From a virus: DNA of 30,460 nucleotides. Within the stretch, counting starts at the first letter, position 1; every line of letters begins with the position of its first letter. The notes beneath the pieces are model-generated. The model searched no databases, was not told the origin of the DNA, and saw only the letters and a list, made by a program, of their open reading frames with translations. The stretch is from positions 1 to 30,460 of IMG/VR virus record IMGVR_UViG_3300037493_004912; one strand, given 5' to 3'. Position numbers and translations under genes: made by a program. Positions 4,211-17,831 of this stretch are shown here, one piece after another.

Positions 4211-5986
4211 TCAAGCCCGGGGTTCGGGCGGTGTGGGTGGTTGGTCGGTCGGCGTTGGGGCTGCTTCCCCGGTGTCGGCGTCGGCCTGCTCGATTTGGTC
4301 GGTGATGATGTTTTCGAGCAGCACCAGGTCGACGAAATCCGCCTTCTTGCCCTGCGCGATGGCCCGCGACTTCGCCCGCGCAATGCTCTCACGCAGCGCG
4401 GGAATGCTGTAGTCGTTGACGTTGATGTCGACGTCACCCGCTGCGAGGTACGTCTTGACCGCGAGGTCTGCAGCTTGTTTCGCCACGGCGTTCGGTGCCG
4501 TCTTCTGCGCCGCGGCCACATCCTCGGCGCCGCCGACGCCCGCCTGGGCATTCTCGACGGCCTTCCCGACGCGCACATCGGTGCGACGTTCGAGTTCGCT
4601 CGCCGATTCGAGACGGATGTTTTTACCCTGCACGTCCGCGCCGGTGAACGTGAAAATATCGGCCGCGTCCATGCGCGTAATCTCGGCGACACGAGGGACC
4701 GGGTAGTACAGTTGGATGATGGCAAGGCAGACGCGCCATGCATCGAGCACCATGTCCTCAAGGGACTTGAGTGCGTCGCTGTTTTTCTGCGCGTCGAGTT
4801 CGTAGTACGCCTCGATGGCGCGGCCCGACAACGTCGGGGCAGCACCGCCCGAGGTCACCTCGTTGAGCCCGACGACGTCGAACATGAAGGCCTTCGCGTC
4901 GTCGCGCAGCTTGTACAGGTCGAGGCCCACCGCGCCCAGCTCGACGGCGAATATCTTCGACCGCGCGTCATCCATCTTCGGGTCGTAGTCGATGGTGTTG
5001 GTGCGCGTGATGTCGATGGAGTCCGCGAGCGTCTTCGGCATCGCAATCTGCGGGTTCGTCACCAGTCGCATGACCTTGATGGTGCGTGCGTGTGTCTCGT
5101 TCAGCAGTCGTTGAAGGTTGATGACGTCGGCCAGCGGGGTGATTCCGTAGGCGCTGTCTCGACGAAAACGAATCTTCATCAGCGAGAGGGGAAGGAGCGA
5201 TTCCTTGCGGTCGTCCTCGGTGTTGACGATGAGCGGGTAGGCCTTTCGCACGACGACGACGGTTCCGATGATGACCGCGAACACGCCGTCGGGGAACTTC
5301 CGCGACGGGCGAACCCAGTATTCGTAGCCGACAATCCCGCAGACCGTTTCGCCGGCCGCGTTGACGTAGTCCTGCTCTTCAGGAGGGAGGCCAGCGACGC
5401 CACCGGCTTCCCACATCGCCGCGACTTCGTCCTCGCCGTAGTGATTCTCGAAAATCACCCACTTCGCGTCATGCCAGTCCTCGACAGGGTCAATCCAATA
5501 ATCGTGGATGGTCAGACGGGCCCATCGAACCTCGCCGCGAACCTCGTCGGGCCAAACCTTCACGCCGGCGGTTCCATCCTGAAACGCATACTGCACGGCC
5601 TGGTGAATCTTGCTCGCGGTCTTCTGCTCCTGGGCGACGTAGTCGATGACGCGGTTGGTGATTTCCGTATTGTAGATGTCCTCGGGGTCGTCGGGCGTCG
5701 ACGCCGTCGCAAGAGCGCTGCGGCGGTCTTTGTTGAGCAGCGACGAAAACGTCGTCATCAGCCCCTGACAGATGTTGATGTGCGAACGAGGCACGTTCTC
5801 GTCGTCGAACCACGCGTCTTTGACCACCTGTCGACGCTGCCCGCTGTAGACGCCCCACTGTCTCCCGCCGACGAACATCTCACACAGCTCGCCGAGCTGC
5901 CGATATGGCAGCGCGATGCGCTCCCCTTGGCGCTTGTGCCTGTTGAAATCATCGAGGATTGACGACGTCAGCGGGAGGTCGGCCAT
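4211..5986 (-). CDS. Portal protein (591 aa)
   Basis: At 591 residues this has the size and pattern of P22-like podovirus portals. The start at 5986 follows the preceding stop by one base (TGAAATG). The N-terminal region includes CEMFVGGRQWGVYSGQ and then SHINICQGLMTTFSSLLN, a region typical of portal entry domains. Next come GTAGVKVWPDEV and HDYWIDPVEDWHDAKWVIF, which match the portal wing segments that describe an assigned location and a cross-check strand. The C-terminal 150 residues are helical with acidic stretches and end in a Pro/Thr-rich tail. The portal forms the dodecameric DNA channel at one capsid vertex and docks the terminase. Unusually, it is transcribed away from the capsid gene. 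Confidence 0.88.
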   Translation of the reverse strand: MADLPLTSSILDDFNRHKRQGERIALPYRQLGELCEMFVGGRQWGVYSGQRRQVVKDAWFDDENVPRSHINICQGLMTTFSSLLNKDRRSALATASTPDDPEDIYNTEITNRVIDYVAQEQKTASKIHQAVQYAFQDGTAGVKVWPDEVRGEVRWARLTIHDYWIDPVEDWHDAKWVIFENHYGEDEVAAMWEAGGVAGLPPEEQDYVNAAGETVCGIVGYEYWVRPSRKFPDGVFAVIIGTVVVVRKAYPLIVNTEDDRKESLLPLSLMKIRFRRDSAYGITPLADVINLQRLLNETHARTIKVMRLVTNPQIAMPKTLADSIDITRTNTIDYDPKMDDARSKIFAVELGAVGLDLYKLRDDAKAFMFDVVGLNEVTSGGAAPTLSGRAIEAYYELDAQKNSDALKSLEDMVLDAWRVCLAIIQLYYPVPRVAEITRMDAADIFTFTGADVQGKNIRLESASELERRTDVRVGKAVENAQAGVGGAEDVAAAQKTAPNAVAKQAADLAVKTYLAAGDVDINVNDYSIPALRESIARAKSRAIAQGKKADFVDLVLLENIITDQIEQADADTGEAAPTPTDQPPTPPEPRA

Positions 5987-14201: not shown

Positions 14202-14323
14202 CTACCCTGACGCGCCATGGGCGTGCGGGTTGGGTGGTCGCTGTGGACGGTGTGGCCGTCGTCACCGGTGTCGGTTTTCCCGGGGCCATCGCAGCGTTCG
14301 GTGTGCTGCGAGGTGCCCGATGA
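14198..14323 (+). CDS. 41-residue ORF, coupled on both sides
   Basis: A GTG at 14198 overlaps the preceding TGA, and the frame's own TGA at 14321-14323 overlaps the next ATG (ATGA). It fills the gap exactly. The peptide is mostly hydrophobic after residue 10 (WVVAVDGVAVVTGVGFPGAI) and ends RGAR. It could be a small membrane-associated protein or simply a coupling ORF. No family is recognised. Confidence 0.45.
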   Translation: MTTLTRHGRAGWVVAVDGVAVVTGVGFPGAIAAFGVLRGAR

Positions 14324-14835
14324 TTTACGCCATCGAAAGCGCGCAGGGCCTTGTCCGAATCGCCGCAGGATGGCCGACGCTGGCGTCGTCCTACTGGGAT
14401 GCCACCAGTTGGCAGACCAACCCCGGTGCCCAGCGCGCGTTGCGTCGGGCTGTCTCCGTCTCCACCGCTGCGGTTGTCGCAACGCAAGGCGTCGCCGCAC
14501 GTGCAGCCCTAGACCTACTCAACGGCGCCTGCGTCGTGGTCCTCGACGCCGACGCCCACGCCCGGCACAGCGTGGCCCAGGCAGCGAGAGGTCGCGTCGA
14601 CGTTCGCCGCCGGCAGCTGCTCGCGGGCATCACCGCCGTCGTCGACACTGCCCGGCTCGTCGGGGCAGGGGCAACGATTGACGGCACCGCGTGGACGCCG
14701 GAAATGTGCGCCGCCCGCATCGAGCGGGAGATTGATTACGTGCTGTATGAGTGCCTGCGCGACCCCGAGGTCGGCGAGGGGTGGTTCACCGAGGCCGGGC
14801 TCCGTTGGTTTGTGGCCAACCTGCAGGCGAAATAG
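14320..14835 (+). CDS. Hypothetical early protein (171 aa)
   Basis: The start at ATG 14320 (MIYAIESAQGLVRI) is chosen for the ATGA overlap; the frame open upstream to 14230 lies over the 41-residue ORF. The protein is Ala/Val-rich and mixed alpha/beta, with an NGACVVVLDADAHARHSV strand-turn-helix and a helical C terminus (CAARIEREIDYVLYE). No signal peptide and no recognised family. It is followed by 175 non-coding bases that contain a ribozyme. Confidence 0.65.
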   Translation: MIYAIESAQGLVRIAAGWPTLASSYWDATSWQTNPGAQRALRRAVSVSTAAVVATQGVAARAALDLLNGACVVVLDADAHARHSVAQAARGRVDVRRRQLLAGITAVVDTARLVGAGATIDGTAWTPEMCAARIEREIDYVLYECLRDPEVGEGWFTEAGLRWFVANLQAK

Positions 14836-14909
14836 CTTCAAAGGTTTCCCCGTCGACTTCGACGCGGCGGGGAGAATGGCCGCCCGGCAGCATGTCGCTG
14901 CCGGGGTAA

Positions 14910-14992
14910 CGACCGAAACGGGGGGGTGCTTGGATTCACCGCCCGTCGACGACCACGGCGCACCGATACGGTGGGTTGTCCTGATGAGGACG
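14910..14992 (+). ncRNA. Type II (permuted) hammerhead ribozyme
   Basis: All core elements are present in the order of a type II hammerhead. GAA at 14915-14917 precedes A15.1 at 14918. Stem III pairs 14918-14922 with 14942-14946, then 14925-14928 with 14937-14940, around an 8-base loop. U16.1 (14946) is followed by C17 (14947), giving a GUC cleavage site between 14947 and 14948. Stem I pairs 14948-14954 with 14974-14980 (one G-U), then has a six-base bulge and a capping hairpin (14961-14965 with 14969-14973). CUGAUGA lies at 14981-14987. Stem II pairs 14910-14914 with 14988-14992, with one A-A mismatch. Cleavage would separate the upstream message from the transcript of the HTH gene at 15011. 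Confidence 0.8.
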
Positions 14993-15010
14993 CCGAACAC
15001 GAGGACACAC

Positions 15011-15262
15011 ATGACCAAAAAAAAACCAAAACGAGCGACGACGCTAGCGATTGCCGCGACGCTGCTTGGCATCGACCGCGCCACCCTCCGCCGATGGTGC
15101 TGCTCGGGAGCGCCACACGACAAGATTCCATGCCCGCCGATGCCAGCGGGATTTCTGTTTCACGTCAACGTCGACGAGCTGCGCGCGTGGCGAAGAACCA
15201 AACCCGAGGGGAACCGGACGGCGTTTATCAACTACGCCGCCGTCGACGGTGACGACGTATGA
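15011..15262 (+). CDS. Small HTH DNA-binding protein (83 aa)
   Basis: ATG 15011 has GAGGA five to six bases upstream; the longer open frame from 14678 runs through the ribozyme and is not used. The N terminus is Lys-rich (a nine-A run encodes three lysines). Residues 9-30 (ATTLAIAATLLGIDRATLRRW) form a helix-turn-helix of the MerR/excisionase/Fis type. Residues 45-58 (GFLFHVNVDELRAW) form the beta-wing and next helix seen in such proteins. It may be a transcription factor or an accessory DNA-binding protein. Its message would carry a 63-base leader after ribozyme cleavage. ATGA overlap with the next gene. Confidence 0.7.
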   Translation: MTKKKPKRATTLAIAATLLGIDRATLRRWCCSGAPHDKIPCPPMPAGFLFHVNVDELRAWRRTKPEGNRTAFINYAAVDGDDV

Positions 15263-16266: not shown

Positions 16267-16896
16267 ATGACCACCAGCATCGACGTCGGGGCCACCATCG
16301 CCCCCAAGTCCGACCAACTCAATGCCGACGACCTCATCGTCGGGCCGCGCACCATCACCCTCACCGCCGTCAAAGCCCGCGCCAGCACCGGGCAGGGAGA
16401 CCAGCCTATCGCGTTGCACTTCGAGGGTGACGCAAACAAACCCTACCTGCCGTGCAAGTCGATGCGCCGGGTCCTCGTCCAATGCTGGGGCCGCGACGGC
16501 GCGGCCTACGTCGGGCGCTCCCTCACCCTGTACCGCGACGAGAGCGTCGTCTTCGGTGGGGCGGCTGTCGGCGGAATCCGCATCAGCCACATGAGCGAGC
16601 TGACGCGCAGCGTGACGTTGTCGCTCACCGCCTCGAAGGCGTCGCGCAAACCCTACGTCGTGCAGCCCCTCGTCATCGCCGCCCCGGCGAAGGCCGCGAA
16701 GAAGGAGGCGACGGCCGAGGAAAAGCTCGCGAAGGCGAAGGCGACGCTCGACACCATCCTCGCCGACATTGCCACCGCCGAGGACGTCAACGCCGCCGCC
16801 GCCAAGCACGCCGACATGATTGCGCGCGTCGCCGGTGTCGTCCCCGACGCCCGCCTCCGCGTTGACGCTGCCGTCGCTGCTCGCCTCGCCCGCTGA
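16267..16896 (+). CDS. Conserved phage protein next to the exonuclease, DNA-binding candidate (209 aa)
   Basis: ATG 16267 follows CCAGGAGCAC. Residues 6-125 follow a pattern I recall from many phages of alpha-proteobacteria and relatives: IGATIAPKSDQLNADDLI-like opening, PRTITL, then KPYLPCKSMRRVLVQCWG, YVGRSLTLYRD, and VGGIRISHM. The function of that family is not established to my knowledge. The fold looks beta-rich (OB-like) up to residue 140, followed by a Lys/Ala/Glu helical tail. Adjacent to a YqaJ/lambda-exo gene, a single-strand DNA-binding or annealing role is a reasonable inference. Confidence 0.75.
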   Translation: MTTSIDVGATIAPKSDQLNADDLIVGPRTITLTAVKARASTGQGDQPIALHFEGDANKPYLPCKSMRRVLVQCWGRDGAAYVGRSLTLYRDESVVFGGAAVGGIRISHMSELTRSVTLSLTASKASRKPYVVQPLVIAAPAKAAKKEATAEEKLAKAKATLDTILADIATAEDVNAAAAKHADMIARVAGVVPDARLRVDAAVAARLAR

Positions 16897-16922
16897 CACC
16901 ACCACCACCAGGAGCACCACAC

Positions 16923-17831
16923 ATGACTGAGCCAATGTTCCCCGTCGTCGCCCACGACGCCGACCGCGAGCGCATCCGCGCCCGGGCCCGCCTCGCCCGC
17001 GATGTTCTCGCCGACCTGGAAGAGGCCGCTATCAGCGCCGCGAGTCGGCATGGCCACCAGGTCGACGCACTGAAAACCGAGTTGGCCGAGGCCCAGCGAC
17101 AGCTGGCCACGCCCTCGCTGCCCTTCCCGGCCTCGATGGCCGTCGGCCTCGATGATATCCGCGTCATCCTCGAGGAGGAACAGCGCGGGGTCATCGACGA
17201 CCTTGTCGTCGTCGAGGACGGGCAGGTGCAGGTCATCGACACCATCCACCAGCTGCTCGCCCACATCATCGCCGTCGACACCGCCTGGCCCGCGAGCGAG
17301 ATGGAGAGCCTCCGCCGCCAGTTGCAGTTTGCGCAGGACGAGTTGCGCAAGGCCAACGCCGCCGCGCTGGCCAATGCTCAGGCCGAGGCCGACCACCTCG
17401 CCGACATGGACGGGGACCTGCGACAGGCCGTGACCGAGCTCATCGACGGCATCCGCCCCGTGGACGTTGCAGCTGCTCGCCTCGCCGACAACGCCAACCC
17501 CACCGCCGCCATCATCGTCGTCGCTGAGGCCCTGCGAGAGCTGACCGGCCAGATCCTGGAGGACGGGGAGGGCGAGACGATGCGCGCACTTGCCCTCGCG
17601 CGCGCTGACGCTGACCGCCTGGAGACCGAGCTGCATGCAATCGAGGCCGCATGCGAGGCAGCAGGCATGGCCGCGACGGTGGAGCGCGAGGACATCCCCG
17701 GGTGGCTTGCCCTGCATCTCACCCCGCGAGCATTGCAGGCCAAAGCCAAACGCAAGGCGAAGGCGCCCGCCGTCGAGGCCGACGATGACCAGGGGCAGCT
17801 TTCCATCCTCGACGAGGTGAGCGATGTCTGA
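16923..17831 (+). CDS. Acidic coiled-coil protein with possible clamp-binding tail (302 aa)
   Basis: A 302-residue, acidic, mostly helical protein with an ACCAGGAGCAC initiation cassette eight bases before ATG 16923. Heptad-like runs lie at residues 40-65 and 120-165 (SLRRQLQFAQDELRKANAAA). The last 40 residues hold a Lys/Ala linker and an acidic end with QGQLSILDEV. This resembles the bacterial beta-clamp-binding motif QL(S/D)LF. The family is not recognised. A DNA-metabolism or replication accessory role is suggested by position and the tail motif. It overlaps the next gene by eight bases. Confidence 0.65.
   Translation: MTEPMFPVVAHDADRERIRARARLARDVLADLEEAAISAASRHGHQVDALKTELAEAQRQLATPSLPFPASMAVGLDDIRVILEEEQRGVIDDLVVVEDGQVQVIDTIHQLLAHIIAVDTAWPASEMESLRRQLQFAQDELRKANAAALANAQAEADHLADMDGDLRQAVTELIDGIRPVDVAAARLADNANPTAAIIVVAEALRELTGQILEDGEGETMRALALARADADRLETELHAIEAACEAAGMAATVEREDIPGWLALHLTPRALQAKAKRKAKAPAVEADDDQGQLSILDEVSDV

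Follow-up and report, generated by a model that had tools for sequence, protein, structure and literature searches.

Genomic setting of the element

This locus raises the question of whether a phage early operon holds an RNA that cuts itself ahead of a regulator-like gene, and of what such a cut would serve. The window, i.e. the whole stretch of DNA that was analysed, comprises 30,460 bases of the IMG/VR virus record IMGVR_UViG_3300037493_004912. Its middle part carries genes for an HTH protein, a YqaJ/RecE-like exonuclease and a D5-type primase-helicase (early/replication) on the + strand, and the portal and terminase genes lie on the - strand, a gene content that fits the 'early operon' label of the first-pass annotation. 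The upstream gene (14320-14835, + strand) encodes a 171-aa protein without functional assignment, for which family searches (phrog, Pfam) gave no match; its synteny is conserved in 12 homologous loci. The downstream gene (15011-15262, + strand) encodes an 83-aa excisionase/regulator-like HTH protein (phrog_66, E=1.1e-4; HTH_17, E=1.4e-4, under the Pfam cut-off), and a Shine-Dalgarno-like GAGGA (15001-15005, + strand) stands 5 nt ahead of its start codon. The motif lies within the 175 nt from the end of the 171-aa gene (stop codon, 14835) to the start of the HTH gene (15011). No sigma-70-type promoters were found near it. The start of the HTH gene itself (15011-15034) contains a run of nine A (ATGACCAAAAAAAAACC), longer in one relative (L021), at which slippage might occur or which might serve as an A-rich standby site for ribosomes.

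Anatomy of the hammerhead

The first-pass annotation had proposed a type II hammerhead ribozyme in this gap. All the conserved hammerhead core nucleotides (CUGANGA ... GAA ... NUH, with A15.1-U16.1) are present in type II order on the + strand between 14913 and 14995, and most of the elements originally described were found as claimed. The core GAA (G12 A13 A14, 14915-14917) is invariant and A15.1 (14918) is present in 15 out of 16 aligned sequences. The stem III hairpin (14918-14928/14937-14946, with one mismatch, one bulge and the loop 14929-14936) leads into the GUC triplet (14945-14947), where H17 is C14947 and cleavage is predicted between C14947 and G14948. Stem I follows (14948-14980), with seven pairs (14948-14954/14974-14980), an internal loop (14955-14960) and a capped extension (14961-14965/14969-14973), and then the core CUGAUGA (C3 to A9, 14981-14987). 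Stems I and III are thus closed and stem II is open, the type II topology. The leader of 63 nt (14948-15010) ahead of the ATG at 15011 is likewise borne out by the coordinates.

Stem II was misread. It had been drawn as a five-position closing helix with one A-A mismatch, and we rejected that extended form because its outer pair, 14911-14991, is A x C, hence unpaired, in 6 of 13 relatives, and because the same bases form a covarying pseudoknot. The actual stem II consists of two nearly invariant pairs, G14988-C14914 and G14989-C14913: the 3' strand (C11.2 and C11.1, 14913-14914) is paired as C-G in 15/16 and 16/16 sequences, with one U-G, to the 5' strand (G10.1 and G10.2, 14988-14989) in the 16-sequence alignment. 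After G14989 come A14990 and then CGCCG (14991-14995), which is the partner of CGGCG (14956-14960) in the internal loop of stem I. This contact, which links a loop of stem I with the tail 3' of stem II, is the type II pseudoknot; it had been overlooked, and we rank it as the best piece of evidence for the ribozyme.

Database searches and folding energies

Rfam at its curated cut-offs gave no match in the window, and a search of the entire record with RF02276 (Hammerhead_II) gave none at E<=1. With the threshold relaxed, this family was the top Rfam match (14911-14998, full model covered), so the covariance-model check named in the first-pass annotation returned the expected family yet fell short of the gathering score: 20.3 bits in the window and 30.8 bits for the relatives' copies, against 37 bits, a curated cut-off and not an anatomical feature. 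A descriptor comprising the core, a stem III of at least 5 bp and a stem I of at least 7 bp matched only the reported motif in the window, and gave 0 matches in 300 dinucleotide shuffles of the window on both strands. When a model was built from sequences outside the window's clade, it scored the window at 101.4 bits (E 3e-26). No other hammerhead was detected in the window by the descriptor scan or by model R1 at E<=0.01; model R2 had a weak match at 5367-5475 on the - strand (19.3 bits).

The minimum free energy (MFE) fold of the window differs from the hammerhead. Pseudoknot-free energy models favour non-hammerhead folds, and under an energy model without pseudoknot or tertiary terms the predicted minimum is more stable than the nested hammerhead fold by about 8-11 kcal/mol. 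Such a preference is common among short ribozymes that are stabilised by tertiary contacts.

Conservation and covariation among related phages

Related contigs were fetched by protein searches with the HTH, 171-aa, 94-aa and 209-aa genes. In these phage contigs the element again precedes the HTH gene, as 15 further distinct sequences (16 with the window), and its position between the stop codon and the Shine-Dalgarno of the HTH gene is conserved among the relatives. The model recovered it in 8/8 tested records of related phage contigs of about 19-34 kb and, by the same kind of search, it was absent from 10/10 further phages, larger for the most part, in which the 209-aa protein also occurs. 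Among named phages, a search of blastn sensitivity gave no near match beyond a 21-base chance match, and a host search gave no close prophage among GTDB genomes. We rejected a 21-bit R1 match in Methylobacterium (L195), which has no core on inspection, as well as weak RF02276 matches in G005, G009 and G010, which also lack a hammerhead core.

Over 13 distinct sequences and 37 pairs (hammerhead, pseudoknot and the upstream hairpin B described below), 97.5% of the cells are paired and both-sided changes occur at 13 pairs. None of 500 shuffles reached the observed counts, and sliding the structure along the alignment left 0-1 pairs with both-sided changes; neither control corrects for kinship, but the substitutions are of more than one type. 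In the hammerhead and pseudoknot alone, nine pairs show such changes across the 16 sequences. Stem I is paired in 100% of cells (16 sequences), with both-sided changes at 3 pairs, and its pair 14953-14975 occurs as G-C, C-G, U-A and U-G; in stem III 4 out of 10 pairs change on both sides (13 sequences), and the stem III that one relative (L028) has at this place, of 10 bp, is for the most part different. The pseudoknot covaries at 14956-14995 (C-G, A-U or G-C) and at 14960-14991 (G-C or A-U) in the 16 sequences. By its anatomy and the comparative evidence, the element is a genuine type II hammerhead that the Rfam cut-off misses: conservation with compensatory change settles that it is real, and not a chance occurrence, despite the sub-threshold score.

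One relative (L021:4097-4720) carries a perfect 447-nt tandem duplication that takes in the hammerhead together with the last part of the gene before it and the first part of the HTH gene; it is either a real duplication or an assembly artefact.

Natural variants of the core

A full core, with U or C at N7, is present in the window and in seven other distinct sequences of the 16. Position 7 is the core position that toggles (U/C) among relatives with otherwise intact cores, and C was found there in L083, L025, L019 and L168. Further changes affect the core of other relatives: U15.1-A16.1 in L089 (one distinct sequence of the 16, present in several contigs), an extra U after A9 in L012, L181, L085 and L028, an extra U plus U4C in L014 and L015, and A9U in L168. 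The 209-aa protein gave a poorly resolved tree, on which sequences with a full core fall in several regions and the variants are dispersed. Judged by their sequences, several relatives' cores are expected to be weak or dead. The relatives with altered cores still keep stems I, III and the pseudoknot, and since the fold is retained alongside the extra U, A9U, U4C and U15.1-A16.1, the structure may matter without fast cleavage.

Two of these variants resemble published ones. L089 is like a natural U15.1-A16.1 variant that cleaves less efficiently (PMC3088659), and the four sequences with the extra U after A9 are like viroid hammerheads with an extra core nucleotide, one of which is reported to be weaker yet tied to infectivity (PMC11014351). 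Unlike the published cases, the core variants here are homologous to one another and share a single locus among related phages.

Upstream hairpins and a helix competing for stem II

Two conserved hairpins precede the hammerhead. Hairpin A (14848-14855/14865-14872, + strand; loop ACUUCGACG) is recovered by the alignment and in MFE folds, and is absent from L028. The relatives that have it share a nearly invariant loop of nine bases (AYUUCGACG), which suggests a candidate binding site. Pairing of this loop with the cleavage site (UCGACG/CGUCGA) was considered and dropped, as it is broken in L089 and the motif recurs often in this DNA.

Hairpin B (14883-14905, + strand) has 9 bp and a 5-nt loop, with both-sided changes at 4/9 pairs and 99% of cells paired. 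Below it, a basal helix (14878-14882/14910-14914; 95% of cells paired) forms 4 or 5 of its 5 pairs in 16/16 sequences. Two of these pairs change on both sides, a count that shuffles match in 24/500, and in the window the helix contains a C x A mismatch at 14880-14912. This helix takes the stem II strand C14913-C14914, so it and stem II are mutually exclusive, and the exclusion between the hairpin B and hammerhead folds makes a switch possible. Type II hammerheads have been known in phages since 2011; the new feature here is the conserved hairpin immediately before it, with a base that can, from the complementarity of the strands, pair with the stem II strand.

Predicted cleavage and competing explanations

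The conserved element has type II hammerhead anatomy, and the early mRNA therefore probably cuts itself before the HTH gene. The claim as first put, a type II hammerhead upstream of this gene, is upheld by the complete core, the toggling N7, the compensatory changes in stems I and III and the covarying pseudoknot. In transcription of the + strand, stems III and I would form first, followed by the core CUGAUGA, the two-pair stem II and the pseudoknot, in which the tail binds the internal loop of stem I by five pairs; the pseudoknot would keep stems I and II next to each other. A cut between C14947 and G14948 would follow. The upstream product would carry the stem III hairpin and a 2',3'-cyclic phosphate at its 3' end, and the downstream product would begin with the 63-nt 5'-OH leader, opening with the stem I hairpin and the pseudoknot. 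In this leader the pseudoknot would end five nt ahead of GAGGA, the ribosome-binding site of the HTH gene, which is itself five nt from the ATG. We consider it very probable that the leader between the 171-aa and HTH genes holds a type II hammerhead whose co-transcriptional self-cleavage, as read from sequence, would split the early message.

Three other explanations were weighed. A chance resemblance in a GC-rich intergenic region would agree with the sub-threshold Rfam score and the different MFE fold, but it is extremely improbable, being already refuted by the covariation and conservation over 16 distinct sequences, and the shuffle test and the score of the leave-clade-out model also speak against it. 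A second explanation sees a hammerhead-derived structured 5' leader that tunes the stability or translation of the HTH message, with cleavage secondary or lost. The altered-core relatives with intact helices would fit such a leader, as would the placement of stem I and the pseudoknot wholly inside it and adjoining the Shine-Dalgarno. However, the eight distinct sequences with a full core, the window included, are spread over the tree, and stem III and the GAAA are also kept though a leader has no need of them; we therefore regard this explanation as improbable.

It is also conceivable, though rather unlikely, that the hammerhead is gated, in the sense that the base of hairpin B captures the stem II strand and keeps the ribozyme off until a protein, translation of the upstream gene or simply folding time releases it. 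The persistence of the competing helix in every sequence, its two covarying pairs, the covariation of hairpin B itself and the presence of the helix in MFE folds of several relatives argue for a gate. Two varying pairs, matched by some of the shuffles, are modest support, the helix of the window is interrupted by its C x A mismatch, no ligand or protein is known for the gate, and other hammerheads cleave without one. That competition from the upstream hairpin would let the phage control when the early transcript is cut appears doubtful; if true, it would mean that the phage times this cut ahead of the HTH gene.

Second hammerheads and comparison with known systems

A second, short type II hammerhead was found downstream in the same early operon of L021 (7472-7531) and L026 (7134-7193), with RF02276 scores of 38.4 and 34.6 bits, respectively. 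The higher score exceeds the Rfam cut-off (37), so a relative phage adds further support for the type II hammerhead of this operon. The L026 copy begins directly behind a stop codon, with the Shine-Dalgarno of the next gene close after its end, and in both copies the stem I loop can pair with the tail (UCGC/GCGA). The window has no counterpart: its gap after the 209-aa gene (16896-16923) is just 27 nt. With a second hammerhead downstream in the operon, cutting at both sites would free a block of early genes.

Type II hammerheads have a short stem II and need the pseudoknot between stem I and the tail for fast cleavage (Perreault et al. 2011, PMC3088659). The element studied here shares with the RF02276 type II hammerheads (PMC3088659) the strand order, the core, the two-pair stem II followed by A, the pseudoknot that joins the loop of stem I to the tail following stem II, and the location between genes of phage or prophage operons. 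It differs in its longer stem III, in a stem I with a 6-nt internal loop (used by the pseudoknot) and an extra capped hairpin, in scores of 20-31 bits, under the cut-off, and in the conserved hairpins A and B upstream. Tandem prophage hammerhead arrays are also known, three of which cleave in vitro and one of which was shown to cleave in E. coli (PMC3088659). The two hammerheads that bracket early genes in L021 and L026 are like the clustered prophage hammerheads of Agrobacterium tumefaciens (ardA, PMC3088659); unlike that cluster, the window has one detected hammerhead and a different set of genes (HTH, exonuclease).

The role with the best support is message splitting, favoured because of the second hammerheads of the relatives, the layout shared with published prophage arrays and the cleavage of some of those arrays; its benefit and its effect on expression are our reading of the arrangement. 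The likely use would be to divide the early transcript into messages with structured ends that decay or are translated separately. Throughout a phage group the element occupies one position in the early operon, and it comes with natural variants of its core and with what may be a competitor helix. This constancy of place, the natural series of cores and the competing hairpin give it more use than a mere further ribozyme would have, and the family offers a ready comparative set for asking whether phages split or time early messages by self-cleavage.

Between the two hammerheads of L026 (6687-7000) we also observed a short-repeat gene, with a weak collagen-repeat match in an overlapping frame.
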